Assembly (NCBI GenBank): GCA_021822565.1
Contig: JAKAQM010000009.1
Coordinates: 1-45,887 of the forward strand
Source of the DNA: Actinomycetes bacterium
GTDB taxonomy: Bacteria > Actinomycetota > Acidimicrobiia > Acidimicrobiales > RAAP-2
Length of the DNA: 45,887 nucleotides
Direction: 5' to 3'
How positions within the stretch are numbered: position 1 is the stretch's first letter; every line of letters begins with the position of its first letter. A program made the position numbers and the translations under genes. Positions 22,406 through 36,015 of the stretch are shown here, one piece after another. Under the pieces are notes generated by a model. The model saw only the letters and a program-made list of their open reading frames with translations. It was not told the DNA's origin and did no database searches.

Positions 22406-22515
22406 ATCGAGGCGGCCGCCCGCTCTCTCCCGCGTCGCTTCCGGGCGCCCGGTGAACCGCCCTCCCGTTGAGCCGCAACGCGGGTCACCATGTGCCTTCC
22501 CGAATATGCGTCCAT

Positions 22516-22536
22516 GAACATGTTCCCTTGTATGAT
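22516..22536. promoter_or_regulatory. Palindromic operator candidate plus -10 before the first sHdr-linked ArsR gene
   Basis: GAACATGTTC at 22516-22525 is a perfect 10-bp palindrome. It is followed by TATGAT at 22531-22536, which ends 6 bases before the GTG start. The palindrome would sit in the promoter spacer, a normal place for an autoregulating ArsR repressor. It lies in the shared region with the divergent ligase gene and could control both (inference). Confidence 0.5.
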
Positions 22537-22542
22537 GCGAGC

Positions 22543-22917
22543 GTGCACACCGCGAATGCCCTTGATCCCTATCTCCGTCAGGAGCTCGACGAGCTGGTCT
22601 CCGGCATCTGCAAAGCGCTGAACGACTCCAAGCGGCTGACCATCCTGTACGCCCTGCGCTCCGGTCCGCACACGGTGTCCGAGCTCTGCGAGGTGATCGA
22701 CGCCCCGCAGTCGAACACGTCCCAGCACCTCGCCATCCTCCGAGACCGCGGCCTGGTCAACACCGTACGTCAAGGCAACAACGTGATCTATTCGCTGAGA
22801 CATCCCAAGGTGATCGAAGCGGTCGACTTCCTGCGCGAGGTGATGGCCGACGAGATCGCCCGGCGGAGCGGGCTTCGGAACCGCCACGAGGAGAGCGCCC
22901 GCACCCTGTCATCGTAG
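22543..22917 (+). CDS. ArsR-family regulator, sHdr-associated (paralog 1)
   Basis: A 124-residue ArsR-family winged-helix protein. The recognition part is HTVSELCEVIDAPQSNTSQHLAILRDRGLV, then the wing RQGNNVIYSLRHPKVIEAVDFL. Two cysteines (SGICK near residue 23 and SELCEV near 49) are conserved in paralog 2; metal-binding motifs of arsenic sensors (CVCDLC) are absent. In other sHdr loci an ArsR-type repressor (sHdrR) senses sulfane sulfur through cysteines. That role here is inference, since the cysteine positions are not those usually described. The GTG at 22543 is chosen from the paralog alignment and the leaderless -10. Confidence 0.83.
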   Translation: MHTANALDPYLRQELDELVSGICKALNDSKRLTILYALRSGPHTVSELCEVIDAPQSNTSQHLAILRDRGLVNTVRQGNNVIYSLRHPKVIEAVDFLREVMADEIARRSGLRNRHEESARTLSS

Positions 22918-22943
22918 AACCCGCACCCTGCCGCCGTAGAACC
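22900..22943 (+). repeat. 22-bp tandem repeat across the stop codon of the first ArsR gene
   Basis: Two imperfect copies of a 22-base unit (CGCACCCTG...GTAGAACC) at 22900-22921 and 22922-22943. The TAG stop at 22915-22917 is repeated in the second copy, so the coding end is not changed. Confidence 0.75.
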
Positions 22944-23021
22944 GGCACGAGCCGTCGCCCCGGCGACAGCGGGAAGAACCCGCCTCACCCCTGGGCTCAC
23001 CTCATCGTCAGCCGTTGAACA

Positions 23022-23041
23022 GCTCCATGGAGCACTATGCT
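23022..23041 (+). promoter_or_regulatory. Palindromic operator candidate plus -10 before the second ArsR gene
   Basis: GCTCCATGGAGC at 23022-23033 is a perfect 12-bp palindrome; TATGCT at 23036-23041 ends 5 bases before the ATG. TTGAAC at 23015-23020 is a -35 candidate at a short 15-bp spacing. The layout repeats that of the first ArsR gene, with a CATG-centred palindrome just before a leaderless start. Confidence 0.5.
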
Positions 23042-23046
23042 CTTGG

Positions 23047-23445
23047 ATGGTGGGGATCGACCCCGCATTGCGCCACGAGCTCGACGACCTGGTCGACGCC
23101 ATCTGCAAGGGCGTCAACGATCCCAAGCGGTTGCACCTGCTCTATGCGCTGCGTGGTCAACCGCGGACCGTGACCCAGCTCTGTGCCTTGGTCGGCGCCC
23201 CACAGTCCAACGTCTCGCAGCATCTCGCCGTGCTGCGAGACCGAGGCCTCGTCGAAGCGTTGCGGGCCGGAAACAGCGTCATCTACTCCTTACGACACCC
23301 GAAGGTGCTGGAGGCGATCGACATCCTCCGGACAGTCATGGACGATGAGCTGCAACGTCGCCACGCGCGAGCCGCCGGTCGAGCGGCCGATACGCACGAC
23401 CGCAGCTCTTCGACCCTTCGTCATCCAGAGGAGCTGCCTGGCTAG
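23047..23445 (+). CDS. ArsR-family regulator, sHdr-associated (paralog 2)
   Basis: A 132-residue ArsR-family protein clearly paralogous to the preceding one: ALRHELDDLVDAICKGVNDPKRLHLLYAL, APQSNVSQHLAVLRDRGLVEAL and SVIYSLRHPKVLEAIDIL align without gaps. The same two cysteines (AICK, QLCALV) are kept. The C-terminal 35 residues differ and are Arg/Ala-rich. It points toward the sHdr operon and ends convergently to the Rieske-fusion gene. Two neighbouring paralogs could divide sensing of different sulfur states, or form heterodimers (inference). Confidence 0.83.
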   Translation: MVGIDPALRHELDDLVDAICKGVNDPKRLHLLYALRGQPRTVTQLCALVGAPQSNVSQHLAVLRDRGLVEALRAGNSVIYSLRHPKVLEAIDILRTVMDDELQRRHARAAGRAADTHDRSSSTLRHPEELPG

Positions 23446-23475
23446 GGCGGAGACCGCCGGCATGCGTCGACCGAG

Positions 23476-23495
23476 CGATCGCCTCATCGCGATCG
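23476..23495. terminator. Stem-loop between convergent ArsR and Rieske-fusion genes
   Basis: CGATCGC-CTCATC-GCGATCG forms a perfect 7-bp stem with a 6-base loop in the 59-base gap between the two convergent stops. There is no T-run, so it would be a non-classical, bidirectional terminator at best. Confidence 0.35.
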
Positions 23496-23504
23496 GGCGC
23501 CCGG

Positions 23505-24149
23505 TCAGAGCACCAGCCAGGCGCGTCCCGCCTCTTCGACGACCCGGTGCACGCGGATCCCTGCGTCGGCCGGTCCCCGCACGCGTTCTCCGGTGCTCAC
23601 GTCGAACTGGCTCCCATGGCGCGGGCACGTGAGCACGACCCCGTCGAGGGTTCCGGCCGACAGCTGGGCACCAGCGTGAGGACAGAGATCGTCGACCGCC
23701 ACCAACGACGATCCAACGCGATAGAGCGCCAGCGGTCCCGCCGGGCTGTCCTCGATCCGGGCTACGAGTCCGAGGCGCCCAGCGACGTCGGCGCTGTCGA
23801 CGAGGGGGAGACGTCGCAGCCCCGGTGCGCGCAACCGGCTCCTCGCTTGGGCGACGGCCGCTCCTCGATTCACCACGACGTCGCACCCTGCTCGTTCGGC
23901 GACCGTCCAGCGCTTCCGGTCAGGAACTGCGAGGAAGCCGACCACCAGTGCGTCTGGGAAGCGGTCGTGCCAGGCAGAGATCGTCTCGGGCGGCTGGCAG
24001 GCATCGACGACGATCACCTCCGGCCGCGTCCTGCCATTGGCGACCGCATCGGGACCGCCCCGACCGACCGCCACGAGGTCAGCGTCTCGCTCGGCCGCCA
24101 ACCGTTCCATGCCGCGCCGCACCAATGCGTCGTCGCCCACCAGGACCAT
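23505..24149 (-). CDS. Receiver-like domain fused to a Rieske [2Fe-2S] domain
   Basis: A 214-residue protein of unusual design. Residues 1-105 resemble a response-regulator receiver: acidic pair GDD near 5-7, putative phospho-acceptor Asp49 in EVIVVDAC, then VVGFLAVPDRKRWTVAERAGCDVVVNRG, where the usual lysine is not seen. Residues 115-214 are a Rieske ferredoxin: CPHAG at 156-160 and CPRHGSQFD at 175-183 give the two Cys and two His ligands, and DVSTGERVRGPAD follows as usual. It is the last gene of the sHdr-linked series, 59 bases after DsrE2. An electron carrier with a signal-responsive or protein-docking domain is a possibility; no function is established. Confidence 0.7.
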   Translation of the reverse strand: MVLVGDDALVRRGMERLAAERDADLVAVGRGGPDAVANGRTRPEVIVVDACQPPETISAWHDRFPDALVVGFLAVPDRKRWTVAERAGCDVVVNRGAAVAQARSRLRAPGLRRLPLVDSADVAGRLGLVARIEDSPAGPLALYRVGSSLVAVDDLCPHAGAQLSAGTLDGVVLTCPRHGSQFDVSTGERVRGPADAGIRVHRVVEEAGRAWLVL

Positions 24150-24208
24150 CCACCGGTCGACCACCTCCGGGCCTGATCCCCCCGTCGTGCCGTAGTGAGG
24201 CCGCCGGG

Positions 24209-24745
24209 TCAGATGAAGAGGTTGATGGACGATTCGGCAGCCATCTCGATGTAGCTTGCGGCACCGATCGGCGGTTCGATGCCCTCGATGAAGTCGTCCT
24301 TGGTGAGTCCGTAGAGCTCCATCGTCATCTGGCATGGGTAGAGCCGAACCCCGAGGTCCATCCCCATCTCCAGGAGCTCCGTCGGGCTGGCGATCTTGTG
24401 CTGCTTGGCCAAGCGCTTGATCATCCACGTGCCCATCCCGCCGAACCGCACTTTCGAGAGGCCCAGATGGTCGGTACCGCCGTGGTCGACCGCGGACTCC
24501 CCAATCTGCATCCAATTCTTCCCGGTGACCCGTTTCGTGTTCTTCTGCAGCACACGCAAGCCCCAGAAGGTGAAGAAGATGCTGGTGTCCAACCCCGATG
24601 CAGCCCCAGTGGTCGCGAGGATGAGCACGGGCCATACTCGGTCCAGGTCAGAGCTCCAGCAGACGACCGTCATGCGTTGCGGGCGGCGGTCGTCTGGCGC
24701 TGCCTGGGCTTCCGGGATCACTGCCTGCACTGGCGCATCGTCCAT
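24209..24745 (-). CDS. DsrE2-family sulfurtransferase-like protein
   Basis: A 178-residue DsrE/DsrF-superfamily protein of the DsrE2 (DrsE_2) type: MTVVCWSSDLDRVWPVLILATTGAA, then DTSIFFTFWGLRVLQKN and LGVRLYPCQMTMELYGL. Cys138 aligns with the sulfur-carrying cysteine of the family; Cys29 is an extra one. Such proteins move persulfide sulfur in the cytoplasm together with TusA and rhodanese. Unlike many DsrE2 proteins there is no obvious membrane anchor. A good AGGAG-type ribosome site precedes the ATG, and a putative own promoter lies about 90 bases upstream. Confidence 0.82.
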   Translation of the reverse strand: MDDAPVQAVIPEAQAAPDDRRPQRMTVVCWSSDLDRVWPVLILATTGAASGLDTSIFFTFWGLRVLQKNTKRVTGKNWMQIGESAVDHGGTDHLGLSKVRFGGMGTWMIKRLAKQHKIASPTELLEMGMDLGVRLYPCQMTMELYGLTKDDFIEGIEPPIGAASYIEMAAESSINLFI

Positions 24746-24835
24746 GCCGTGCCCCCCTTCTCCTCAGCCGTCAGCCGATGAGAAGCACACCTTCGGTCCA
24801 ACCCCTGAATGGCCGGCGGAACCAAGTTTCTCTTC

Positions 24836-24864
24836 ATCGTAGTACGTGGCCGAATCGAGGACAA
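24836..24864 (-). promoter_or_regulatory. Putative sigma70-type promoter for dsrE2 and the Rieske fusion
   Basis: On the minus strand TTGTCC (24864-24859) is followed after exactly 17 bp by TACGAT (24841-24836). Transcription would start about 85 bases before the dsrE2 ATG. The -35 lies inside the first unit of a 12-bp repeat, so further copies of TTGTCC lie upstream. Confidence 0.45.
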
Positions 24865-24900
24865 TGGCCAGGACAATGGCCAGGACAATGGCCAGGACAA
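24859..24900. repeat. 12-bp tandem repeat (3.5 copies) overlapping a -35 element
   Basis: GGACAATGGCCA is repeated at 24859, 24871 and 24883, with a half copy at 24895. It falls in the 199-base gap between lbpA and dsrE2. Each unit carries the -35-like TTGTCC on the minus strand. Confidence 0.9.
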
Positions 24901-24944
24901 CGCGTCGGCGCGTCGGCGCTGTCGCGGAGATGACGCACCGCCGC

Positions 24945-25400
24945 TCACTCCGCGCAGCGGAAGCAGCGGATGCCTCGTTCGTCGATGATCGAGCGGTAAC
25001 GCTCGAACGCCTCCGCTCCAGTAACCAATGCCGAACGCTCGGCAGCGAGGTTCGCCGGGCGCATGCGGATGAGCCACCCCTCTCCGTACGGGTCACGGTT
25101 GGCCACCAGGATGTCGGCGGCGAACGCTGCTTCATTGGTCTCCAGCACCTCGCCCGTGAACGGCGACGGGAACGGCCCGACCCACTTGGCGCTCTCGATG
25201 ACGGCCAGCGGCTTGCCGCGGGCCACCCGCCGACCTCGCGGCTTGAAGGAGATCTGGACCAACTTCCCCCCGAGCGACTGGGCCACGTCCGTCATGCCGA
25301 GCACCGCCTCGTCGCCCTCGAGCCGGACCCAGACGTTGCGCTCCACGTCGTAGAGGAGGTCGTCGGGGAGCACGCAACCGCCCCACACTCGCTCGCTCAT
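24945..25400 (-). CDS. lbpA2: Lipoate-binding protein LbpA, second copy
   Basis: A 151-residue GcvH-like protein. Core: LPDDLLYDVERNVWVRLEGD, VLGMTDVAQSLGGKLVQISF, then the lipoylation site AVIESAKWVGPFPSPFTGEV with Lys72, then DPYGEGWLIRMRP. In sHdr systems LbpA carries the sulfur substrate on its lipoyl arm, unlike glycine-cleavage GcvH. The pattern Glu-Ser-x-Lys-Trp-Val is shared with the upstream copy. The extra C-terminal CFRC pair (residues near the end) is absent from the first copy. It is separated from the first copy by 28 bases. Confidence 0.87.
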   Translation of the reverse strand: MSERVWGGCVLPDDLLYDVERNVWVRLEGDEAVLGMTDVAQSLGGKLVQISFKPRGRRVARGKPLAVIESAKWVGPFPSPFTGEVLETNEAAFAADILVANRDPYGEGWLIRMRPANLAAERSALVTGAEAFERYRSIIDERGIRCFRCAE

Positions 25401-25428
25401 CTCTCGCCCCGTTCTTCCCCGCCCACTC

Positions 25429-25863
25429 TCAGCCGCCCTCGCAGACGATGCCCTCCTGCTCGAGGAACCGCTGGTACGCATCGACACCTTCGGCCCCAGT
25501 GGCCAGATCGGTCGAGTCGGCCTCCCAGTCGTCCGGCCGGACACGGGCGATCCACCCCTCCCCGTACGGGTCACTGTTGAGCGTGGTCGGCGACTCGGTC
25601 ACCGCGTCGTTCACCTCGACCACTTCGCCACTCACCGGGCTCGGCACTGGACCCACCCACTTGCTGCTCTCGACGGTGGCCAGGCTCTTGCCCTTGGCGA
25701 CCCGCTTTCCCACGCTCTTGGGCGTCACGGCGACCACCGTCTTGGCCAGATGCTGCGCCACGTCGCTCAGGCCGACGGTGACCACCTCGCCGTCGTAACT
25801 CGCCCAGACGTGCTTCTCCACGAGGTAGAAGAGGTCGTCGGGGATGTTGCAGCCTCTGATCAT
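25429..25863 (-). CDS. lbpA1: Lipoate-binding protein LbpA, first copy
   Basis: A 144-residue GcvH-like lipoyl carrier. IPDDLFYLVEKHVWASYDGE and VTVGLSDVAQHLAKTVVAV form the hammerhead fold; Lys68 in ATVESSKWVGPVPSPVSGEV is the lipoylated residue; DPYGEGWIARVRP completes the core. It is similar to the second copy over its whole length but clearly diverged, so the two are an old duplication or separately selected forms. The ATG is chosen because it overlaps the stop of the zinc-finger gene (TGATG); a GTG lies one codon upstream. Confidence 0.88.
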   Translation of the reverse strand: MIRGCNIPDDLFYLVEKHVWASYDGEVVTVGLSDVAQHLAKTVVAVTPKSVGKRVAKGKSLATVESSKWVGPVPSPVSGEVVEVNDAVTESPTTLNSDPYGEGWIARVRPDDWEADSTDLATGAEGVDAYQRFLEQEGIVCEGG

Positions 25864-26162
25864 CACTGTGCCCCTTCATCGATCAGGTCACCGTGCTCGG
25901 CCAGCAGGTGGTTCACGAGCATGTCGAAGGCGACCATGCGAATCTCACGACGGAACTCCTCCAGAAATCCCGGATCACGTAGGTGCGGGTTCACCTGGTG
26001 CTCGTAGGCAGCGTGGCACACCGGACACTCGATCGCGTAGTAGCGCGCGCCCTGGCGCTCGACGAAGCGCACCTCGTCGGCGTGCACCTCCGACAGGTGC
26101 GCATGGAGTGCACGAGGCTGAGCTTTCAACGGACACCACGGACATGTCATCGCGACAATCAT
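25863..26162 (-). CDS. Small double zinc-finger-like protein of unknown function
   Basis: A 99-residue protein with two treble-Cys/His motifs. The first is CPWCPLKAQPRALHAHLSEVH (C-x2-C with two His, C2H2-like); the second, CPVCHAAYEHQVNPHLRD, again has C-x2-C with nearby His. A helical C-terminal tail (EEFRREIRMVAFDMLVNHLLAEH) follows. I do not recognise the family. It overlaps the lbpA1 start by one base and follows the EtfD-like gene after 40 bases, so it belongs to the sHdr operon. Zinc-dependent assembly factor, regulator or persulfide relay are all possible. The start (ATG 26162, or 26150) lacks a clear ribosome site. Confidence 0.65.
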   Translation of the reverse strand: MIVAMTCPWCPLKAQPRALHAHLSEVHADEVRFVERQGARYYAIECPVCHAAYEHQVNPHLRDPGFLEEFRREIRMVAFDMLVNHLLAEHGDLIDEGAQ

Positions 26163-26202
26163 GCCAATAGGAGGGCTGGAGCCCTGGCGGATCGCGGCGG
26201 GG

Positions 26203-28245
26203 TCATGCGGGCGCGGAGGCGACCGCCGCGGCCGCGTCGCGGGACCGAGACTTCGCGGTGCGGGCTTCGGCAACCAGCTGGACGAGGTCGATCACCTGAA
26301 GCCGGTCGTCGTAGCCGGTCGTCTTGGCAGCGTCCGAGTACATCGTGAAGTCTTTCGGGCACGCCACCACGAACCGGTCGACGCCCAGCGCCATCGCTTC
26401 ACGGATCCGGCTCTCGCTGGGTCGCTCGCCGGCGCCGGGCTCGTCGGCCATCCAGATCCGTCCGCCCCCTGCGCCGCAGCAGAAGGTGTTGACACCGTGG
26501 CGGGGCATCTCCACCAGCTCGCAGCCGAGCGATCGCAGCACGCGGCGTGGGGCGTCGGTGATCCGGTTGTGGCGACCGAGGTAGCACGGGTCGTGGTAGG
26601 TGACCCGCCTACCCAGCGGCTCGACCGGGATGGCCCCGGAGGCAAGCAGCTCGGCCAGCAGCTCCGAGTAGTGAAGGACCGGCTTGTCCAGGCCGAACGC
26701 CGGATACTCGTTGCGCAGCGTGTTGAAGGAATGGGGATCAGTGGTGAAGATGGTGTCGAACTGCGCGCCTGCGAAGGCTGCCATGTTGTGCTCGACCAGC
26801 ATCTGGAAGAGCCCTTCTTCCCCGACTCGGCGAACGTCGTTGCCCGCATTCCGCTCGGCTTCGTACAGCAGCCCGAAGTCGACGCCGGCGTCGTACAAGA
26901 GGCCCGCGAGCACGCGCGAGAGGTCGGCCAGCCGCTCGTCGAACGACGCGAAGTCGCCGACGAACCACAGGTAGCGCACGGGCTCTTTGCGGGCGTCCGT
27001 GGGCGTGAAGCCCAGCTGTCGGGTCCATCGCGCGCGCATACGCTCCGACTTTCCGAACGAGTTTCCCTGCACGGCGATGGCCTGGAGCGCATCCTGGAGG
27101 CTGGGTTCCATGTTCCCCTGCTCCACCTGGCTGCGACGGAGGTCGACGATGGCGTCGACGTGCTCGATGTCGACCGGGCACTGTTCGACGCAGGCACCGC
27201 ACGTGGTGCACGACCAGATCACGTCCGGGTCGATCACGTTGGGAACGAGCACCGGGGCGTCGCCGGCACTCCGGTCGCCCATGCCGCGGCGCAGCAGGGT
27301 CCCAGCGGAGGCGAACATGCCGTCACGGAGGGACATGACCAGCAGCTTCGGCGACAGCGGCTTGCCGGCGCTCCATGCCGGGCACGCCGCCTGGCACCGC
27401 CCGCACTCGGTGCACGTGACGTAGTCGAGCAGGTGCTTCCAGCTGAGGTCGTAGATGCGCTCTGCGCCGGCCGTGCCCGAGGTCACCTCGAGAGCGCCGA
27501 GTGCTCGCGGGCGCCGCGAGAAGGCCACATTGATCGGCGCGAGGAAGATGTGGAGGTGCTTCGAGTGGGTGACGAACACCAGGAACCCCATGATCGCCGC
27601 AACGTTCAGCAGGAGAAGGACTGTCTCGAGTACCGAGTTCACGCCGCGCCCCAGCGGGTGGAGGAGATCGCCGAGGCCGTGGGAGAAGAATGCCCATGAG
27701 CCGTACGGGAAGTCGCCGGTGTTCGCCTGGGCGGCCCGGTACCCGACGAGGGTGAGCATCACGACCGCGATCATGGCGAGCGTGACCCATGCGACGCCGG
27801 TATGCGAGCCGTAGAAGCGGGACCGCCGCTGACGGCGCGCCGGCGCGTCCACCAGCCGGATCACGCTGAAGGTGGCGACGGCGAGGAGCACGACGACGAT
27901 GAAGAGGTCCTCGATGAAGCCCAGCGCCGCCGAATGGCCGATACCCGGGATGGCGAACCGTTTGCTCCACAGCGCGTCGCCGTACGCCTCGACGATGGTG
28001 AAGAGCAGGATGATGAACCCCCAGAACGTCAGCGCGTGCGGGATGCCCGACTGGGGGCGCTTCAGCAGCTTGCGCTGGCCGATCACCTCGACGACCTCGG
28101 CACCGAGGCGACGGAGCGCTCTGCGCGTCCTTCCGGGGGCAGGGGCTCCGGCCCGCACCAGCAACGCCAGCCGTCCCAGGCGGGCCCCGGCCAGGGCGAG
28201 CCCTGCCGCGGTGAGGAGGGCGGCGACGACGATCCGAACCGTCAC
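26203..28245 (-). CDS. Membrane Fe-S oxidoreductase, EtfD-like (NarI-like plus HdrD-like)
   Basis: A 680-residue fusion. About five membrane segments cover residues 3-28, 67-88, 107-130, 150-170 and 202-226 (NarI/DsrM-like). Then come two [4Fe-4S] motifs: Cys278/281/284/288 (CTECGRCQAACP) and Cys346/349/352/356 (CTTCGACVEQCP). The HdrD-like region ends with CYLGRHN (Cys554), FCCGAGGG (Cys589-590) and ACPKD (Cys629), a CCG site. This is the layout of EtfD, which takes electrons from EtfBA into the quinone pool. It directly follows etfA with a GTGA overlap, supporting that partnership. It is probably the membrane exit of the sHdr system (inference). Confidence 0.85.
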   Translation of the reverse strand: MTVRIVVAALLTAAGLALAGARLGRLALLVRAGAPAPGRTRRALRRLGAEVVEVIGQRKLLKRPQSGIPHALTFWGFIILLFTIVEAYGDALWSKRFAIPGIGHSAALGFIEDLFIVVVLLAVATFSVIRLVDAPARRQRRSRFYGSHTGVAWVTLAMIAVVMLTLVGYRAAQANTGDFPYGSWAFFSHGLGDLLHPLGRGVNSVLETVLLLLNVAAIMGFLVFVTHSKHLHIFLAPINVAFSRRPRALGALEVTSGTAGAERIYDLSWKHLLDYVTCTECGRCQAACPAWSAGKPLSPKLLVMSLRDGMFASAGTLLRRGMGDRSAGDAPVLVPNVIDPDVIWSCTTCGACVEQCPVDIEHVDAIVDLRRSQVEQGNMEPSLQDALQAIAVQGNSFGKSERMRARWTRQLGFTPTDARKEPVRYLWFVGDFASFDERLADLSRVLAGLLYDAGVDFGLLYEAERNAGNDVRRVGEEGLFQMLVEHNMAAFAGAQFDTIFTTDPHSFNTLRNEYPAFGLDKPVLHYSELLAELLASGAIPVEPLGRRVTYHDPCYLGRHNRITDAPRRVLRSLGCELVEMPRHGVNTFCCGAGGGRIWMADEPGAGERPSESRIREAMALGVDRFVVACPKDFTMYSDAAKTTGYDDRLQVIDLVQLVAEARTAKSRSRDAAAAVASAPA

Positions 28246-29222
28246 TCCTGCACCCGCTTCACCAGCTCGTCGGTGAGGTCGAAGAGGTCGACGGTGGTGC
28301 CGTAGGTCGCCACGTCGAAGATGGGTGCCTTGGGATCCGTGTTGCATGCGATCACCGTCTCGGCGTGCTGCATCCCCTCCAGGTGCTCGGGAGCGCCCGA
28401 GATGCCGAGGGCCAGATAGACCTTGGGCCGTACGGTGAGGCCCGACTTGCCGACCTGCCGGGCCTTGGGTAGCCACCCTTGGTCGATGAGCGGTCGCGAG
28501 GCGGCGAGGGGGGCGCCCAGGGCGTCCGCGAGCTCCTGGACGACCTCGAGGTTCTCACGCGACCCGATCCCCCGTCCCACCGAGACCAAGAGATCCGCCG
28601 CCGTGATGTCGACGTCGCCCTTCTCGGGCTCCACCACCTGCGCGACCGAGACGCCGAGGCCGTCGAACACGCCCTCGAGGTCCAGCAGCTCGACCTGCCC
28701 GGCCACTTCGCTCCGCCCGGCCACTTCGCTCCGACCGTCCGCCGCGGGGAAGCACCCGGCGATGACGGCGCAGATCGCCCGCGGCCCGGTCAGCGCCACC
28801 TCTGCCAGCAGCTTGCCTCCGTATGCCCTGCAGGTGACCGCCAGGTCTTCGCCATCACGCCTCACGTCGACCACGTAGGAGGCCAGCGGGGCGGGCCAGT
28901 GCACGGACAATGCGGTGCTCACGTCCATGCCGACGGTGGTGGTCGACGTCAGCACCAGGCGCGGCTGCTGGCGTTCGACGACGTGCACCATCGCTCGCTC
29001 GTAGGCCTGGGCGTTGTACGTGGCGACGGCGGGATCCTCGGAGCACAGCACCACGTCTGCAACGCCGAGCTCGTGCGCCAGCGACGTTTCGCCGAGAAGG
29101 ACGGCGAGCACGCGGCCCCCTCCTCGATCGGCGAGCTCACGCGCCTTGCCGACGAGCTCGAACGTCACGTCCGAGAGTCGACCGTTCCGGTGCTCCGCGA
29201 GTACCAGCACGTCGTTGCCCAT
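28242..29222 (-). CDS. etfA: Electron transfer flavoprotein alpha subunit
   Basis: A 326-residue EtfA. N-terminal domain: VLVLAEHRNGRLSDVTFELVGKARELA. The C-terminal FAD domain has VGRGIGSRENLEVVQELADALGAPLAASRPL and VYLALGISGAPEHLEGMQ with IACNTDPKAPIF, the standard EtfA FAD motif. The protein accepts electrons in the cytoplasm and passes them on as a heterodimer with EtfB. In sHdr operons, etfAB marks the so-called type II arrangement. An 18-bp in-frame repeat (28701-28736, GRSEVA twice) sits in the interdomain linker. GGAGG lies 7 bases before the ATG. Confidence 0.9.
   Translation of the reverse strand: MGNDVLVLAEHRNGRLSDVTFELVGKARELADRGGGRVLAVLLGETSLAHELGVADVVLCSEDPAVATYNAQAYERAMVHVVERQQPRLVLTSTTTVGMDVSTALSVHWPAPLASYVVDVRRDGEDLAVTCRAYGGKLLAEVALTGPRAICAVIAGCFPAADGRSEVAGRSEVAGQVELLDLEGVFDGLGVSVAQVVEPEKGDVDITAADLLVSVGRGIGSRENLEVVQELADALGAPLAASRPLIDQGWLPKARQVGKSGLTVRPKVYLALGISGAPEHLEGMQHAETVIACNTDPKAPIFDVATYGTTVDLFDLTDELVKRVQE
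28701..28736 (-). repeat. 18-bp in-frame tandem repeat in etfA
   Basis: Two 18-base copies encode GRSEVA repeats in the EtfA linker. The frame is kept. Confidence 0.85.
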
Positions 29223-29235
29223 GACCCTGCCTCCG

Positions 29236-30009
29236 TCAGCTCCGCACCAGGCCCTTGGCCCGGAGCAGCTCCACGATCCGATCAGCGACCTCGCCGGCGC
29301 CTCCGGCCAGCATCTCGGCGTGCCCAGCGGCCTCCGGGGCGACCAGCCGCCGCAACGCGAACTGCTCCGTCCCGAGCTCGGCTGCCTGGACCTCGACCTC
29401 GGTGATCCCACCGGACTGCTGGGCCTGGCGGATCCGGCTGATCGACACGTAGCGAGGCGCCTGCCGTGCCGCTTGGACGCCGATCACGGCCGGCAGGCGC
29501 ACCTCGTCGACCACCACCGTGCCGCCGGCCAGCTCCTGCCAGACCTTGGCCATCCCGTCTTCCGCCTCCACCCGCACCGCGACCGAGATGTGGGGAACCT
29601 CGAGCTGAGCCCCCAGCAGGCCCGGGAGCTGGCCGTCGAGGTCGTCCGCCGCCTGGACACCCGTCAGCACGAGGTCGAAGGACTGCCCGGAGAGCCACGA
29701 CGCCAGGAGGGCCGCTCGGCGGTGGGAGTCGATCCAGCCGGTCAGCGCGCCGGTCAGCTTGATCGCGGCGTCGGCTCCCTTGGCCAAGGCAGCGTGCAGC
29801 GTCTGATCGACGTCCGGCTCGTCGAGGGCAACCACCACGAGCTCGGCGTCTCCGGCCTCCTTCAGGCACAGCCCCTCTTCGAGTGCCTGGTCGTCGAACT
29901 CGTTGACCACCATCTTCAAGAGCTCCCGGTCGACGTCGGTCCCGTCGGCCGTGAGCTCCAGCTCTTCGACGAGATCCGGGATCTGCTTGACGGCCACCAC
30001 GATGCGCAT
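29236..30009 (-). CDS. etfB: Electron transfer flavoprotein beta subunit
   Basis: A 257-residue EtfB: MRIVVAVKQIPD at the start, VVNEFDDQALEEGLCLKEAGD, then TGVQAADDLDGQLPGLLGAQL near residue 120 (nucleotide-binding loop), and PRYVSISRIRQAQ. It forms the heterodimer with EtfA. The nucleotide site could hold AMP, or a second FAD if the complex is bifurcating; the sequence read by eye does not settle this. The order etfB-etfA-etfD-like is compact. An AAGGGGCGA site precedes the start; a GTG one codon upstream is an alternative. Confidence 0.9.
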   Translation of the reverse strand: MRIVVAVKQIPDLVEELELTADGTDVDRELLKMVVNEFDDQALEEGLCLKEAGDAELVVVALDEPDVDQTLHAALAKGADAAIKLTGALTGWIDSHRRAALLASWLSGQSFDLVLTGVQAADDLDGQLPGLLGAQLEVPHISVAVRVEAEDGMAKVWQELAGGTVVVDEVRLPAVIGVQAARQAPRYVSISRIRQAQQSGGITEVEVQAAELGTEQFALRRLVAPEAAGHAEMLAGGAGEVADRIVELLRAKGLVRS

Positions 30010-30072
30010 CACTCGCCCCTTCGACTGGTGAACTGCCCCCTGCGATCGAACGCCCGCCGGATCCGGAGGACG

Positions 30073-31374
30073 TCACCCACCGCCGCCTCCCATCGCCTCG
30101 TCGACGAGCTCGATGATGTCGCGCACCTGCAACTGGTCGTTGCCGGTCGACTTGGCACCGTCTTCGAACCGGGACACCTCGTAGGGGCAGCACACGGCGA
30201 GCACGTCCGCACCGCTCTCCACCGCTTCGCGCACTCGGCGCTCGGACAGCCGCTCGCTCGTGTGGTTCGCCGTGAGCCCGTCGAGCCACATCCCGCCCCC
30301 TCCTCCACCGCAGCAGTAGCCGTTCTCCCGGCACCGGCCCATCTCGACCAGACGCACACCGGGAATGGCGCGTAGCAGCGTCCGCGGGGCGTCGTACTCC
30401 CCGTTGTGGCGCCCGAGGTAGCACGGGTCGTGAAAGGTGACCGTGCAGTCGAGCTCCTTGCGCCATTCGATGCGGTCGACCAGCGGCGCGAGGAGCTGGG
30501 TGTAGTGCAGCACGTCGTAGCGGTGACCCCGCTTCGGGTACTCCTTGACCAGTGCGTTGAACCCGTGCGGGTCCGGCGTCACGATCCGCTGGAACTCGTA
30601 GCGATCGAGAGTGGCGACGACGTCCTCCATGAGCGCCTCGAACAGCCCCTTCTCACCGGCGAGACGCTGGGAGTCCCCGATCGTCTTCTCCTCGGGACCC
30701 AAGATGGCGAAGTCGACGCCGAGGGCGGTCGCCACACGAGCGAACGACCGGGCCGCCTGCATGCCCCTCGGGTGGTAGCTCCAGTAGTCCTCGACGTAGA
30801 AGAGCACGTCGACCGGCCGCGGGTCCGACGCCAGGACCCGCACATCCACCCCGGCGTCCCGCGTCCACGCATGGCGCCTCCTGGGGTTCTCGCCGAGGGC
30901 GTTGCCGTACCGGAACGTCTTCTCGAAGACATCGGCCAGCTCACCCGGCACCTGTCCCTCGGCGACAGCCACCTCGCGGACGGCCGGCATGACCTTGACC
31001 ATGTCGACCTCCTTCGGGCAGACCCGCAGGCAGTTCATGCACGTCGTGCACAGCCAAAGGTCATCGGAGGTGAAGAGGTCGAGCCCGGTCTGCACCTTGC
31101 GGTGGATCTTGCGTGGCCCGTACTCGCCCACCAGGTCGACGGGGCACACCGGAACGCACTTGCCGCAGCCGTAGCACCACTCGAGCGACTCGCCGCCCTC
31201 CAGGGAGCCGATCTTCTCGAAGCCCTCGGTGGTGAAGTCCCACTCCACCCGCTGCTCGAACATTCGGTTCCACATCCCCGGGAGCTCCCACTCCCGGCCG
31301 GAGAGGGGCGACGTGACGGTGGCGTGCTCGAGCTCCACCGCAGTGGGCGGCTGCTTCCTTCCCCCGATTGGCAT
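30073..31374 (-). CDS. HdrD-like Fe-S protein (sHdrB3 type)
   Basis: A 433-residue soluble HdrCB fusion. Two [4Fe-4S] motifs near the N-terminus: Cys67/70/73/77 (CYGCGKCVPVCP) and Cys109/112/115/119 (CTTCMNCLRVCP). The C-terminal CCG site is complete: Cys318 (CYLGRH), Cys348, Cys354-355 (CCGGGGGG) and Cys395-396 (CCPYE); the N-terminal CCG half is degenerate. No membrane segment. In type II sHdr operons such a protein together with EtfAB replaces the HdrC2/HdrB2 pair. It lies between sHdrHyp and EtfB, with GGAGG before the ATG. Confidence 0.85.
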   Translation of the reverse strand: MPIGGRKQPPTAVELEHATVTSPLSGREWELPGMWNRMFEQRVEWDFTTEGFEKIGSLEGGESLEWCYGCGKCVPVCPVDLVGEYGPRKIHRKVQTGLDLFTSDDLWLCTTCMNCLRVCPKEVDMVKVMPAVREVAVAEGQVPGELADVFEKTFRYGNALGENPRRRHAWTRDAGVDVRVLASDPRPVDVLFYVEDYWSYHPRGMQAARSFARVATALGVDFAILGPEEKTIGDSQRLAGEKGLFEALMEDVVATLDRYEFQRIVTPDPHGFNALVKEYPKRGHRYDVLHYTQLLAPLVDRIEWRKELDCTVTFHDPCYLGRHNGEYDAPRTLLRAIPGVRLVEMGRCRENGYCCGGGGGGMWLDGLTANHTSERLSERRVREAVESGADVLAVCCPYEVSRFEDGAKSTGNDQLQVRDIIELVDEAMGGGGG

Positions 31375-31375
31375 C

Positions 31376-32122
31376 TCAGGCCTCCTGATGGCGAACGCCG
31401 AGCAGGGTCCGGACGAGCCCCTCGAGCCCGGGAACGATCCTGTTGAACTCCTGGGTCATGCGCATCCGCAGGACCGTGTACATGTACACGGCGTACACGC
31501 AGGCAAGGAAGACGTCGATGCCGAACGGGCCGTCCTCGAACGTCGTGAAGCCCGCAGCCCGACCGGTCTCGTTCACGAAGGCGAGTGCCCGGCCGACCCC
31601 GACATACGTCGCGCCCCGACCCTCGGCCACGAGATCGAGCTCTTCCGTCGTGACCAGCCGCAGGGCGCCCGTCTCGATCCTGGGGTCCCACATCCAGCGC
31701 GTCCACAGCCAGTAGTGCTCGGGGTGGGCGAAGTGGAGGAGCTCACCGGGAAGATCGAACCCGATCCCGGGAGCGGCCTCCAGCACCGCGTCGAACCGCT
31801 CGATGCGCTCTCCGACCGGCTCGAGGCCTCGCAACAGGCGATCGATCTCCGCCGCCAGGCGCTCGGCGCCCACCGCCTCAAGGATCATGTCAGCCTTGCG
31901 CCGGCACGAGAAGATGCGGCGGAGCACCTCGCGCAGGTCGGCGCGGCTCGCGCGGGCGGCACGGCCGTCACCCAGCACCTCGGCGAACCGGTCCGACTTT
32001 CGCCTGCAGTCGGCGCCGACCGCGGCGAGGTCGCCCTCGGTGGCACGGCCGAGGATCTCGCGCAGGAACTCCTGGGCCGCCCCGGTGTCGACCACCGGGC
32101 CCGATGGGGCACCGACCGGCAT
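31376..32122 (-). CDS. Conserved sHdr operon protein of unknown function (sHdrHyp)
   Basis: A 248-residue cytoplasmic-looking protein. The first half is helical and charged (VLRRIFSCRRKADMILEAVG); the second half has a striking aromatic segment FAHPEHYWLWTRWMWDPRIE and a late hydrophobic helix DVFLACVYAVYMYTVLRMRM. I know no enzymatic motif here. A gene of this position (after shdrA, before the second HdrB/D gene) is constant in sHdr operons and essential or structural roles have been discussed. It starts 3 bases after the shdrA stop and ends 1 base before the next gene, so it is tightly coupled. Confidence 0.7.
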   Translation of the reverse strand: MPVGAPSGPVVDTGAAQEFLREILGRATEGDLAAVGADCRRKSDRFAEVLGDGRAARASRADLREVLRRIFSCRRKADMILEAVGAERLAAEIDRLLRGLEPVGERIERFDAVLEAAPGIGFDLPGELLHFAHPEHYWLWTRWMWDPRIETGALRLVTTEELDLVAEGRGATYVGVGRALAFVNETGRAAGFTTFEDGPFGIDVFLACVYAVYMYTVLRMRMTQEFNRIVPGLEGLVRTLLGVRHQEA

Positions 32123-32125
32123 CGT

Positions 32126-33184
32126 TCAAGCCCCGACCGGCTGGTGCGAACGGGCGTGAGCCACCGCCCTGACGGCGGCCGCGGCAGCCGAGGACACCGA
32201 GTCCTCCAGGTCCGCAGGCCCTAGGGCGGCTCCACAGGCGAAGATGCCGGGCCTGGAGGTCGATACCGTGTCCAGTGGCGCGTGTGCGGCGTCGATGAAC
32301 CCGTACTTGTTCTGAGCGACGCCGAACGTCTTGGCCATGAGCCGCGTCCCGAGCGAGGGCTCCATCCCCACTGACAGCACGACGAGGTCCATGGTCACCT
32401 CCATGGGCCTGCCCATGGTGGTGTCTTCGCCGCGCACCAGGAGCTTGTCGCCTTTCTGCAGGACCTCGGTGATGATGCCCTTCACGTACTGCACGTGGTA
32501 CTGCTCCTGGGCCGGCCAATAGATCTGGTTCTCCCAGTAGCCGTACATACGCATATCGATGTAGAAGATGAACACCTTGCAGTCCGGCAGCTGCTGGCGG
32601 ACCTCGATCGCCTCCTTGGAGGCGATGCCGCAGCACACCTTGGAGCAGTACTCGTTGCCGATCTGACGGTCGCGGCTGCCGACACACTGGACGAAGCAGA
32701 TGCGCTCGGGCGGCTGGCCGTTGGAGGGGCGCACCACATGGTGGTCCTTCAGCATCGCCTCGAGGTCCTGGAGGGCGACGACGTCCGGGAATTCGTAGTA
32801 GCCGTACATCTGGGTCTCGCGTCCGGGGTCGAAGTGCTGAAAGCCCGTCGCCACGACCACCGCGTCGGCGTGCAGCGGGCCGGCACCGTCTCCGCTGAGC
32901 TCGAGGCGGAATCCATGGCCATCCGGTTCGCATGCGGCGACCTGGGACCCGAGCCGCACGTCGACCAGCTCGTTCGAGGTGACGCGGTCGATCATGCGCC
33001 CCATGGCCACCTCGGCGCTCTCCATGTTCGGGGTGAGCGCGGCGTAGTTCTCCGCGATCGGCGTGCCGCCGAGGAACGGTGCCCATTCCACCAGCGTCAC
33101 CGCGCTCCCCACGTCGGCAACGGCCGCGGCTGCTGCCAGGCCCGCCGGACCGCCACCGATCACGACCACACGCTCGCTGCCCAT
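32126..33184 (-). CDS. shdrA: sHdrA, flavin and Fe-S subunit of the sulfur-oxidising Hdr-like complex
   Basis: A 352-residue protein, short compared with methanogen HdrA, as is normal for sHdrA. FAD motif VVVIGGGPAGLAAAAAVADVG starts at residue 6. The cysteine set Cys163, Cys167, Cys180, Cys184-185 (CFVQCVGSRD, YCSKVCCGIASKEA) is the HdrA [4Fe-4S] site. FIFYIDMRMYGYWE and the C-terminal FAD motif GIFACGAALGPADLEDSVSSA follow. The protein is the electron hub of the sHdr complex in the cytoplasm. GAGAGGAAGG lies right before the ATG; a stem-loop occurs just upstream. Confidence 0.9.
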   Translation of the reverse strand: MGSERVVVIGGGPAGLAAAAAVADVGSAVTLVEWAPFLGGTPIAENYAALTPNMESAEVAMGRMIDRVTSNELVDVRLGSQVAACEPDGHGFRLELSGDGAGPLHADAVVVATGFQHFDPGRETQMYGYYEFPDVVALQDLEAMLKDHHVVRPSNGQPPERICFVQCVGSRDRQIGNEYCSKVCCGIASKEAIEVRQQLPDCKVFIFYIDMRMYGYWENQIYWPAQEQYHVQYVKGIITEVLQKGDKLLVRGEDTTMGRPMEVTMDLVVLSVGMEPSLGTRLMAKTFGVAQNKYGFIDAAHAPLDTVSTSRPGIFACGAALGPADLEDSVSSAAAAAVRAVAHARSHQPVGA

Positions 33185-33203
33185 GACCTTCCTCTCTCGA
33201 CAT

Positions 33204-33218
33204 GCCCGGGTCCCGGGC
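33204..33218. other. Perfect inverted repeat between shdrB1 and shdrA
   Basis: GCCCGGG-T-CCCGGGC, a 7-bp inverted repeat with one central base, in the 54-base gap before shdrA. In RNA it would give a short stable hairpin (loop opened by one or two pairs). It is the only sizeable intercistronic structure in the shdrC1B1A part and might tune relative expression or act as an RNA-end stabiliser (inference). Confidence 0.45.
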
Positions 33219-33238
33219 GTCCGCGTGGCACGAACGCC

Positions 33239-34426
33239 TCAGGCGTCCACGTCCTCCCAGGTGAGAAACTCGATCTCGCCTCGCTCGAGGCGCTTGACGT
33301 CTGCCTCGAACTCGGCCCACGCCGCCTCCCAGTCGATGCCCATCCGCTCCAGAAACGGCCGGTAGTCAGCCGAGTGCCAGTGCAGCTGGCACACGCGGTA
33401 CGGGTGTGCACCCATGGCGAGGGCGGCGAACTGCGCTTCCGACATCACCGGGACACCGACATTGCGGTCGTGGGCCCGGGCGGCGAACTGGCTCTTGTCG
33501 AGGGTGGTGACGCAACCGGTGTCGTGGGTGAGGACGACGTCGGGATCGGCCTCCTCCTTCATCACCTCTATCTTGCGCTGGGTGGCGAATGACCTGGTGA
33601 AGTCCCGCTGCACCAGGATGTGCCGGAAGCCGAACCCGCAGCAGTCGAACCACGTGGAGTAGGAGCGCACCTCGGCGCCAAGCGCCTCTGCCAGCCCGGT
33701 GACGACGGCCGTGCGCTGACCGCCGTAGATGTCGGGGTCGTAGATGGCATCTCCTTCGACCAGCTTGTAGTAGTGGCAGGCCGGATGCACGGTCACGGCG
33801 ATCCCGTCGAAGTTCCGAACCTGGTGGGCCGCGATCTCCTGGCGCATGGCGTAGAACCACTCGGAGTAGTGGACGATCTCCTCGGGCATCACCAGGGGCT
33901 TGCCCAGCTTCGCCAGGATGTCGCGCACCTGCTGGCGCAGCTCGGGATGGAGGAGCAGCTCCTCGCGGACCTCTTTGTAGTGCCCGTAGGAGGTTCCGCA
34001 GTGGATCAGCGGAAAGTACCCCGTCTCTCTGGCGGCGGCGAAGTTGCGCAGCGCCACCGCGGCCTGCGCCGTCGAATTGGACGTGGCGCTGGCGTAGTAG
34101 TTCCACGCCGTGCACGACGTCTGGTCTCGGGGGTCGTGGTAGTCGTAGCCGAGCTTGCGCATGACCCAGAAGATGGAGGTGGAGTAGCCGGGGATGTGAC
34201 CGCACTGCCCGCACGACTTGTGGTGCCAGAGGTGGGCTTTCGGGATCTTCTTGGTCCGCCCGTACTTGGTCGGCACCTCCACGTACGGTTCGCGAACCCG
34301 GTCGACGATCCACTCACCTTCCTCTTCGAGCCGGAACAGCTCCTCGTGGAAGTCCCCCGGCAGCCGCTCGGTGCCGCGCTCGAAGCGCTCCTTCTTCCGC
34401 AGGACCACGTCGACGGGTGCGGTCAT
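33239..34426 (-). CDS. shdrB1: sHdrB1, CCG-domain subunit of the sHdr complex
   Basis: A 395-residue protein with two cysteine clusters. N-terminal: Cys72, Cys75, Cys105, Cys143 (KSCGQCGH, TSCTAWNYYA, HCGTSYGHY). C-terminal: Cys217, Cys262-263, Cys305 (HPACHYYK, FDCCGFGFRH, DTGCVTT). This is a CCG-domain protein of the HdrB family that holds noncubane-type or related Fe-S sites and handles the sulfur substrate. The ATG overlaps the shdrC1 stop (ATGA). The aromatic-rich stretch near residues 80-112 is typical for the sHdrB1 branch. Confidence 0.88.
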   Translation of the reverse strand: MTAPVDVVLRKKERFERGTERLPGDFHEELFRLEEEGEWIVDRVREPYVEVPTKYGRTKKIPKAHLWHHKSCGQCGHIPGYSTSIFWVMRKLGYDYHDPRDQTSCTAWNYYASATSNSTAQAAVALRNFAAARETGYFPLIHCGTSYGHYKEVREELLLHPELRQQVRDILAKLGKPLVMPEEIVHYSEWFYAMRQEIAAHQVRNFDGIAVTVHPACHYYKLVEGDAIYDPDIYGGQRTAVVTGLAEALGAEVRSYSTWFDCCGFGFRHILVQRDFTRSFATQRKIEVMKEEADPDVVLTHDTGCVTTLDKSQFAARAHDRNVGVPVMSEAQFAALAMGAHPYRVCQLHWHSADYRPFLERMGIDWEAAWAEFEADVKRLERGEIEFLTWEDVDA

Positions 34427-35136
34427 GGCTCGATCCCTTCCTCCTCGAGGCGGTCTTGCATGATTTCCTCCAGGATGGCGTGCAGGCCCTCGTCGACCTC
34501 CCGGATCATCTCCAGTACGCCGCTCTCCAGCCAGATGACGTACAGCTCGATCAAGGTCCGCTCGGCCACGTCCCACCCGGTGGAGGTGGTGTGCAACGTC
34601 TCGGGCGGGAGCGCCCGTCGCCACAGTGCCAGGTTGTCGGACACGTCCTTCACCTCGGGTCCCCAGTCGGGGAAGGCGTCGGGCTGCAGCATGTCCGGGG
34701 ATACCTGCGTCCCCGTCGACATGATCTTGTAGATGATCCGCGAGTAGCCCTCCAGCGCCTCCCGAGCGGAGGCCAGGCCGTTGTTGATGGCCACCTCCCG
34801 CATGATCGTGATGAGCCCGCCCGGGTTGTTCCCCCGCGGGCACCGCACACACGAGAAGCATTGGGAACACTCCCAGATGTCCTCTTCCATCTGCTGGTAC
34901 ACCAGCGCGACGTCCTCCCGGGCGATCGCCTGGGCGATACGACGCGGGCTGAAGTCGTAGAAGCGCGCCGAGGGGCACGCGGCCACGCAGATGCCGCACT
35001 CGTAGCAGCCGTAGAGATAGTCGGGGAAGCGCAGGTCGGCCTTGACCTCGTCGAACAGCCGCGCCTTTACGTCGTGAGCGACCTCTGGGTAGCCCGCCAC
35101 GTCGTCGGACTTGTACAGCGCCGAGGTCTCGGCCAT
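34423..35136 (-). CDS. shdrC1: sHdrC1, ferredoxin-like subunit of the sHdr complex
   Basis: A 237-residue protein with two [4Fe-4S] motifs: CYECGICVAACP and CSQCFSCVRCPRGNNPGG (the second with the C-x2-C-x2-C-x2-CP spacing seen in the sHdrC1 branch). The rest is helical and forms the contact to sHdrB1. The start MAETSALYKSDD is chosen because the dsrE stop lies one base away and the longer frame (to 35163) would overlap it. It is coupled to shdrB1 by a 4-base overlap. Confidence 0.88.
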   Translation of the reverse strand: MAETSALYKSDDVAGYPEVAHDVKARLFDEVKADLRFPDYLYGCYECGICVAACPSARFYDFSPRRIAQAIAREDVALVYQQMEEDIWECSQCFSCVRCPRGNNPGGLITIMREVAINNGLASAREALEGYSRIIYKIMSTGTQVSPDMLQPDAFPDWGPEVKDVSDNLALWRRALPPETLHTTSTGWDVAERTLIELYVIWLESGVLEMIREVDEGLHAILEEIMQDRLEEEGIEP

Positions 35137-35137
35137 C

Positions 35138-35521
35138 TCAGAACGACACCACGGCGTCTGCACGCATGGCCATGTCGTTGAAGGCCGCGCCTCCGATCAT
35201 CTCCACCCCGTCGATCAGCTCGTCCATCGAGAGATCGTTCAGCTCGAGCGACGGCTGGCAGACGTACAGCCGGACGCCCAGCTCGGTGGCCTGGCGCACG
35301 AAGTACGAGAGCGGCTGACCCCGGTCACCCTTCGGGCCGATCTTGCCGATGACCTGACGCTGGAGGAGCTGGGGCCCGTACATGGTGAAGTAGATGGCCG
35401 CCTCGCACTCCATTGCCGCCGCCGACGCCGCGAGGAAGAACGGCGTCGCACAGCGCCCCGGGTCATCGGTGCCGTGCGTCTGCACATAGAGGACCTTGCT
35501 GCTGTCCTCGCTGGACCACAT
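35138..35521 (-). CDS. DsrE-family sulfurtransferase-like protein (DsrE3 type)
   Basis: A 127-residue DsrE-superfamily protein. KVLYVQTHGTDDPGRCATPFFLAASAAAM forms the N-terminal Rossmann-like unit; LGVRLYVCQPSLELNDL gives the conserved Cys88 that carries persulfide; EMIGGAAFNDMAM is the family C-terminus. DsrE3 with TusA is the usual sulfur-delivery pair at the head of sHdr operons. It lies 6 bases after tusA and 1 base before shdrC1. Confidence 0.87.
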   Translation of the reverse strand: MWSSEDSSKVLYVQTHGTDDPGRCATPFFLAASAAAMECEAAIYFTMYGPQLLQRQVIGKIGPKGDRGQPLSYFVRQATELGVRLYVCQPSLELNDLSMDELIDGVEMIGGAAFNDMAMRADAVVSF

Positions 35522-35527
35522 GGTCGC

Positions 35528-35755
35528 TCAGCCGACCTTCCGAAGAAGGACGTGGAACACGTCACCCACCCGTTCCAGCTTGACCAGCTCGTTCCCGGTC
35601 CTGTTGGTCCAGGCCTTCATGTCGGGTTCGACACCCGGATCGGTGGCCAAGAGCTCCAACACCTGGCCAGGATCAAGGCTCTTCATCGCCTGTGCCGTCT
35701 TCACTACCGGCAGTGGGCAATTCAACCCAGTGCAGTCGAGCACCTGGTCGGCCAC
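35528..35755 (-). CDS. tusA: TusA, sulfur carrier protein
   Basis: A 75-residue TusA. DCTGLNCPLPVVKTAQAM contains the CPxP motif with Cys13 as persulfide carrier; the C-terminus is GVEPDMKAWTNRTGNELVKLE. TusA hands sulfane sulfur on in the cytoplasm. The GTG at 35755 is preferred to the ATG at 35779: AGGGGGG lies 5 bases before it, the length is then typical, and the ATG would be only about 11 bases from the predicted transcript start. First gene of the sHdr operon. Confidence 0.9.
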   Translation of the reverse strand: MADQVLDCTGLNCPLPVVKTAQAMKSLDPGQVLELLATDPGVEPDMKAWTNRTGNELVKLERVGDVFHVLLRKVG

Positions 35756-35786
35756 GATGCCCCCCCTAAGCAACAGCATGCGGACT

Positions 35787-35808
35787 CGCTAATGTGATTA
35801 TATCAGCG
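35787..35808. promoter_or_regulatory. Imperfect palindrome over the -10 of the sHdr operon promoter
   Basis: A 22-bp AT-rich imperfect palindrome with outer arms CGCT/AGCG and 8 of 11 positions paired covers the -10 box of the tusA promoter. Its place and make-up fit an ArsR-type operator. The two ArsR genes of the cluster are the natural candidates (inference). Confidence 0.4.
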
Positions 35809-35824
35809 CTCCAAAGGGTGTCAA
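35797..35824 (-). promoter_or_regulatory. Near-consensus sigma70 promoter of the sHdr operon
   Basis: On the minus strand TTGACA (35824-35819) is followed after 16 bp by TATAAT (35802-35797). Both hexamers match the consensus exactly, rare in this GC-rich window. Transcription would start near 35790, about 35 bases before the tusA GTG. Confidence 0.7.
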
Positions 35825-35955
35825 GGTACCATGCGACCAGGGGCATCGGGAACGACCCGCCTGGCGGCCACATGCGTCCCCGCTGTCCTCATTGTGGGGC
35901 CATGTCTTGTTTGGACTGGATCGTGTGAGCCTGAGTGACGGCGCGTCGTGCGGGC

Positions 35956-36015
35956 GGCACCCACCCGTGCGGCACCCACCCGTGCGGCACCCACCCGGGC
36001 GGCACCCACCCGTGC
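35956..36015. repeat. 15-bp tandem repeat (4 copies), G-quadruplex-prone
   Basis: Four copies of GGCACCCACCCGTGC (one with a T-to-G change) lie between the sHdr operon promoter and the aminotransferase stop. The minus strand holds repeated GGGTGGG runs, at least eight G3 tracts, and can form G-quadruplexes. No gene is evident at 35825-36022. Confidence 0.85.

Follow-up and report, generated by a model that had tools for sequence, protein, structure and literature searches.

How do type II sHdr systems of sulfur oxidation pass their electrons to respiration? The question is raised by a DNA stretch of 45,887 nucleotides, here called the window, from an Actinomycetes bacterium of the Acidimicrobiales (RAAP-2; GenBank assembly GCA_021822565.1, contig JAKAQM010000009.1, positions 1 to 45,887), which encodes an sHdr cluster together with the electron transfer flavoprotein (ETF) EtfBA and an EtfD-like membrane protein. 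An earlier note on this DNA had described a soluble HdrD-like protein and a membrane fusion with etfBA between them, and had offered a route from sHdr through EtfBA to quinone as an explicit answer for type II systems. Domains and a match in the Protein Data Bank (PDB) confirm the order, on the minus strand; the HdrD-like protein is the already named sHdrB3, whose gene is one of those defining type II. The route itself is supported by linkage, haem ligands and fold, but it is not new, since an exit by ETF has already been proposed. Two features had been overlooked: the membrane protein lacks one iron-sulfur cluster site, D1, and it is chimeric. We consider it likely that the electron exit of type II sHdr sulfur oxidation runs from sHdr through EtfBA and the chimeric EtfD to menaquinone, the CCG tandem of EtfD being its probable partner-specific part.

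Part of this setting is established. The type II definition combines shdrC1B1AHB3 with etfAB (PMC11582611), Group III sHdr clusters carry EtfBA (Cao et al. 2018, PMC6067878), the hdr cluster II of Sulfobacillus holds etfAB and a CCG protein with six transmembrane segments (Justice et al. 2014, PMC4378227), and in Thermomicrobium the electrons were proposed to leave "possibly via the ETF complex" (PMC6776052). What is new is the invariable linkage of etfA and etfD, the ligand pattern without D1, the chimeric EtfD and the scatter of EtfD types when set against the phylogenies of the sHdr core and EtfBA. The published type II accounts that we examined do not describe the identity of EtfD, its missing D1 ligands or its chimeric ancestry. 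A full-text literature search found no treatment of EtfD in sHdr loci, but subscription journals were thinly covered and an earlier description is possible.

Linkage of etfD to type II sHdr loci

A single scan of the GTDB genomes, made with an alignment of sHdrB3, returned 57 loci, all with actinobacterial names. Linkage could be scored in the 35 where etfA is followed by 1.5 kb or more of sequence, and etfD lies directly behind etfA in 35/35. The pair etfBA follows hdrB3 immediately in 14 loci and comes after an lpl/lbp insert in 30. Dozens of actinobacterial contigs carry this gene set, a co-location far beyond chance. The earlier note had held that rare linkage would speak against its route; what we found was the opposite.

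The window's cluster, with shdrC1B1AHB3 and etfAB in one place, corresponds to the published type II definition, and it also contains the two GCV_H-like proteins and the LplA that go with this type. Its order on the minus strand is tusA, dsrE, hdrC1, hdrB1, hdrA, hdrH, hdrB3, etfB, etfA, etfD, lbpA1, lbpA2, dsrE2, a gene for a Rieske-domain protein and lplA, with tusA to dsrE2 forming a single tight operon. The start of etfD is very probably GTG 28245, where the letters GTGA make a 4-base overlap with the stop of etfA. The overlap noted earlier is thus real, but it is ordinary translational coupling, and the membrane protein has 680 residues, not 757. The longer frame, from GTG 28476 with a 235-base overlap, is an artefact of an upstream GTG, its 77 extra residues being another reading frame of etfA. 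For etfA, the mechanical start at GTG 29411 was replaced by ATG 29222.

Fold and cofactor ligands of EtfD

In a phmmer search of the PDB, the membrane protein matched EtfD of Mycobacterium smegmatis (9ojn). Its AlphaFold2 model (mean pLDDT 83) has a TM score of 0.83 to that structure, and VIA-align gives a Z of 36.6 over 652 residues. Ligands were scored on 9ojn numbering with the ligand list of the structure paper (PMC13083937). The haem-ligand histidine pair, which the earlier note had proposed to look for, is conserved (H70/H232, equivalent to H78/H241 in M. smegmatis), as are the menaquinone residues Phe85/230 (9ojn numbering) and all eight cysteines of the cubane clusters D3 and D4, in the ferredoxin motifs C278/281/284/288 and C346/349/352/356. 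The linear [3Fe-4S] cluster D1 has lost all four cysteines, their places being taken by D431/N466/D503/S506. At D2, C554/C589/C590/C629 and H505 are kept (Cys637/672/673/709 and His583 in 9ojn), and D632 replaces the fifth cysteine, Cys712. A second EtfD of the same genome, on contig C21, keeps the D1 and D2 ligands in full. The window protein thus has the haem pair, the two cubane sites and, as predicted by the model, the solved fold of the EtfD family; it lacks the four D1 cysteines and the five-cysteine-plus-histidine D2 of the mycobacterial type, and it fits the D1-less, DgcB/FadF-like branch, in which D2 is largely kept. The ligands of a catalytic HdrD/HdrB are not there either: all those of the N-terminal CCG domain are replaced, in sHdrB3 as well as in EtfD. 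Because the ligand set for the catalytic noncubane pair is incomplete, EtfD probably serves as an electron wire rather than a disulfide reductase, and the operon and the ligands suggest that it would let ETF reduce menaquinone.

The pattern is constant among sHdr loci. The two haem histidines and both cubane CCCC motifs are present in 38/38 sHdr EtfDs, and the quinone Phe is conserved as well. D1 is gone from all sHdr-linked EtfDs whose sequence spans it, and Asp takes the place of the fifth D2 cysteine in 33/33. By comparison, generic EtfDs found with the C21 protein keep D1 and D2 in full (29/29). D1 is likewise lost in 57 of 58 sHdrB3 rows, which have Glu in place of the fifth D2 cysteine; the exception, from L022 (G005:C22), is another HdrD-like protein that keeps all D1 and D2 cysteines. 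It belongs to a different sHdr-like cluster with several lbpA, an hdrB1 about 40% identical and no etf genes nearby. Another locus (L042:370-4476) has, upstream of its main sHdr cluster, a second hdrA-like gene set along with an hdrB3-like gene (57% identical). The best structural match of the sHdrB3 model is also 9ojn. That sHdrB3 derives from the EtfD next to it, shortened by its membrane part, is unsupported: the sHdrB3 proteins group in a clade of their own next to the EtfDs as a whole, and they probably lost D1 separately.

Two-part ancestry of the window EtfD

In the tree of full-length EtfDs the sHdr proteins are not united, and a single clade was rejected by the approximately unbiased (AU) test (p 1.4e-6). 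It was this rejection that led to the chimera, for the tree of the iron-sulfur and CCG part does unite them (support 97/98). The two halves of the protein show opposite identities. The membrane half is 56-62% identical to housekeeping EtfDs of its own family (the C21 protein has a median of 56% to the type-1 group, that of the window) and 19% to most sHdr EtfDs; the CCG half is 64% identical to sHdr EtfDs and 42-48% to the housekeeping ones. The membrane tree nests the window type among the housekeeping EtfDs, where its sister is a protein from the same family (support 99/96, inside a set with 100/100). With a reduced set of sequences, the AU test rejects the wrong grouping for the membrane half (4e-53) and for the CCG half (1.9e-8) alike. 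Finally, 86 diagnostic sites are of housekeeping type through residue 364 and mostly of sHdr type from residue 377. The switch lies at the same place in all eight tabulated type-1 proteins, which come from separate contigs and two of which are truncated in the CCG half.

That the halves merely differ by rate or by convergence is barely credible to us. The membrane domains of the EtfD branches are very divergent (about 20% identity), and deep branching among them is hard to recover, but this would not account for opposite identity patterns in the two halves, for a single sharp switch shared by eight contigs, or for AU tests that reject in both directions. The sequences thus indicate that the window EtfD is a natural chimera of a housekeeping wire and an sHdr CCG tandem, a form shared by the eight loci, and a single fusion event would be the simplest reading of the common junction. 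The junction comes soon after the second ferredoxin motif, so the haem, the quinone site, D3 and D4 would have come in together as a single wire, with the CCG tandem making up the other part. The housekeeping branch presumably serves beta-oxidation. Other combinations were seen: some D1-containing EtfDs of the same order (L132, L134 and L109, compared with 9ojn in the trees) carry the other membrane-domain branch, and the sHdr-linked EtfDs of Paraconexibacter and Conexibacter (L078, L082) have a third, very divergent membrane domain on an sHdr-type CCG half. Exchange of the membrane half may be common in the EtfD family.

Apparent replacement of etfD and probable acquisition of the cluster

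On both the sHdr-core tree and the EtfBA tree the types of EtfD are scattered, with at least four changes forced by the starred branches. For example, L056 and L072, of the chimeric type, adjoin L067, of the other type, in both trees, and an EtfD tree that keeps L056, L066, L067, L065 and L068 in one group is rejected (p 1e-40). These are quick trees, and related loci are not independent. It seems from them that etfD was exchanged at its site directly after etfA, with EtfBA remaining attached to the core, each replacement being D1-less.

The whole cluster lies in a genomic island. The window at 15340-21283 and 36021-45887 aligns to the congener G296 at 89% and 91%, and the gap between these flanks is 0.24 kb in G296 and 14.7 kb in the window. 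The GC content is 67.3% in the island versus 72-73% in the flanks. No integrase was seen in the island and no flanking repeats were found at its ends. We did not find sHdrB1 in twelve congeners and seven other relatives. Misbinning is an unlikely cause of this absence, because the flanks are about 90% identical to the empty-site congener and because another assembly holds a contig, L027, that is 99.9% identical. Most likely, the sulfur pathway and its electron exit were acquired as one piece.

A probable route from sHdr to menaquinone

These observations suggest a simple path. The sHdr core would oxidize protein-bound sulfane sulfur, and the dedicated EtfBA would take the electrons from sHdrB3 or sHdrA and hand them to the membrane EtfD. 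As D1 is absent, they would enter at the D2 site of the CCG tandem, and from there pass to the cubane clusters D3/D4, one b haem and menaquinone. EtfB is closest to the Methylophilus ETF (PDB 1o94_C) and has NEFDD (NEWDD in Methylophilus) where the aligned bifurcating ETFs have NPDD, which is suggestive of a plain carrier, so that EtfBA is probably non-bifurcating, like the canonical ETFs, which carry AMP instead of a second FAD. The genome holds other ETFs besides the C21 EtfD, so the pair at the sHdr locus is spare as far as other uses are concerned. Two further contigs of this genome (G000:C150 and G000:C212; L026 and L025) have frames of 715 and 800 residues with two ETF-domain matches each, which suggests fused EtfBA.

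Could the module serve other ends? EtfBA and EtfD might work for another flavin dehydrogenase, of acyl-CoA or dimethylglycine for example, and be mere neighbours of sHdr, much as in other bacteria such a cassette is also found next to oxidoreductases of the amine, dimethylglycine-like and GMC types. We regard this as quite improbable, given the linkage of etfA and etfD in 35/35 loci across many families (within the operon in 14), the transfer of the cassette with sHdr in one island where no other such dehydrogenase was identified, and the other ETFs and EtfD of the genome. Somewhat less remote, though still unlikely, is an exit by lipoamide and NAD+ with EtfBA and EtfD as a side branch. The operon does encode two LbpA proteins, and a transfer from dihydrolipoamide to NAD+ was proposed in type I systems for part of the electrons (PMC6067878), yet for only two of four, and if NAD+ accepted every electron there would be no need for a quinone-reducing module so strictly linked. 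Very unlikely, in our view, is a reverse flow, with quinol feeding sHdr by way of EtfD and EtfBA, or a bifurcating EtfBA, for instance to make a low-potential reductant. ETFs and Hdr-type enzymes can be reversible, and some Hdr and ETF complexes are generally known to bifurcate; against this stand the relationship of EtfB to the Methylophilus ETF without the NPDD motif and the published tie between sHdr clusters and sulfur oxidation (PMC6067878). The linkage, the shared island and the separate EtfD elsewhere argue instead that EtfBA and EtfD work with sHdr, as in the route through the chimeric EtfD.

Several points weigh against this route or its details. The fetched type II loci are all from Actinomycetota and were found by peptide patterns of actinobacteria, and those that are related do not count as independent; the generic EtfDs were retrieved with a D1-containing query; the housekeeping role of the C21 EtfD in this genome is assumed. 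Furthermore, D1-less EtfDs exist outside sHdr, on plasmids (L113, L114, L143, L144, L146-L148 and L150-L152; the plasmid searches returned only EtfD-like proteins of other pathways) and in a congener (L125 of G307, in which no sHdrB1 was found). These DgcB-, GMC- and FadF-type plasmid proteins and L125 rule out D1 loss as a private mark of sHdr EtfDs; it marks a wider branch than sHdr alone. As for the partner specificity of the CCG tandem, its one ground is ancestry: given a chimera, the tandem is likely the EtfBA-docking part and the rest an interchangeable quinone-reducing wire. It is possible, and we put it forward tentatively, that the CCG tandem is an exchangeable adapter choosing which ETF is accepted, with the membrane and ferredoxin part as a common wire. 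Type II sHdr operons would then have made this swap in nature, the docking region of EtfBA and the entry at D2 could be read from the chimera, and the two likely partners of EtfBA, its donor sHdrB3 and its acceptor EtfD, would present matching ports without D1.

Features of the window

The features are collected in Table 1. Within the sHdr cluster, the gene at 23505-24206 (minus strand) encodes a protein with a C-terminal Rieske [2Fe-2S] domain and an N-terminal part without a Pfam match. At 22468-22917 (plus strand), divergent from the lipoate ligase gene, lies an ArsR-family regulator, possibly an sHdrR-like sulfur sensor. Outside the island, the window has a class A bacterial RNase P RNA at 14819-15193 (plus strand).

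Table 1. Positions of the sHdr cluster, its electron exit and the island in the window
Feature	Position	Strand	Evidence
TusA sulfurtransferase	35528..35779	-	PF01206
DsrE-like sulfur carrier	35138..35521	-	PF02635
sHdrC1	34423..35136	-	HdrC-type match
sHdrB1	33239..34426	-	HdrB-type match and CCG domain
sHdrA	32126..33184	-	HdrA-type matches
sHdrH, hypothetical protein of sHdr clusters	31376..32122	-	No Pfam match; position conserved across type II loci
sHdrB3, 433 aa, D1-less	30073..31374	-	Fer4 and CCG; 69-87% identity in 17 type II loci; ligand pattern
etfB, 257 aa	29236..30009	-	PF01012; PDB 1o94_C, E 1.4e-31
etfA, 326 aa, ATG after GGAGG-like site	28242..29222	-	PF01012 (ETF) and PF00766 (ETF_alpha)
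EtfD-like membrane protein, 680 aa, GTG start	26203..28245	-	Fer4 and CCG; PDB 9ojn, E 1.1e-145
EtfD residues 1 to ~368: membrane domain, haem ligands, both ferredoxin motifs; housekeeping ancestry	27142..28245	-	Identity, membrane tree, diagnostic sites
Chimera junction, residues ~369 to 377	27115..27141	-	Diagnostic-site switch in all eight type-1 proteins
EtfD residues ~378 to 680: CCG tandem of sHdr-EtfD type	26206..27114	-	Ligands, CCG tree, AU test, diagnostic sites
LbpA-like lipoate-binding protein 1	25429..25863	-	PF01597 GCV_H
LbpA-like lipoate-binding protein 2	24945..25400	-	PF01597 GCV_H
DsrE2-like protein	24209..24745	-	PF13686
Lipoate-protein ligase (lplA)	21326..22405	-	PF21948
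Island with the whole sHdr cluster, absent at the same site in congener G296	21284..36020	.	Empty-site alignment, lower GC

Relation to known systems and implications

The cluster resembles the type II sHdr-LbpA systems (Group III; Sulfobacillus hdr cluster II) in its shdrC1B1AHB3, etfAB, lbpA and lipoate ligase genes, and, going by its published description, the Sulfobacillus cluster also shares the CCG protein with six transmembrane segments beside etfAB. With the mycobacterial EtfD (9ojn) the window protein shares the whole fold, the histidine pair of the b haem, the quinone Phe residues, the D3/D4 cubanes and most D2 ligands, and its membrane half is of the same branch; it differs in having no D1 site, Asp for one D2 cysteine, no long C-terminal tail and a CCG tandem of another branch. 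DgcB, for dimethylglycine, and FadF, for beta-oxidation in Bacillus, have likewise lost the D1 cysteines and have ETF genes nearby, and some share the Asp at the fifth D2 position. They have other donors and other membrane branches, however, and the fifth D2 cysteine is retained in the FadF- and DgcB-like proteins from plasmids. With the heterodisulfide reductases HdrD/HdrBC the protein has in common the Fer4 and tandem CCG architecture and the CCG fold, but not a complete ligand set for the catalytic noncubane cluster pair.

These results bear on how sHdr systems pass electrons to respiration. The 2026 structure paper described the loss of D1 in FadF and DgcB and suggested D2 as the entry point, and it left open where ETF docks and which cluster is reduced first (PMC13083937). 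The presence in one cell of the hybrid and of a separate housekeeping-type EtfD provides a ready-made domain-swap pair for both questions. Finally, the strict linkage of the quinone module makes a complete and movable sulfur-to-quinone pathway testable as a unit.

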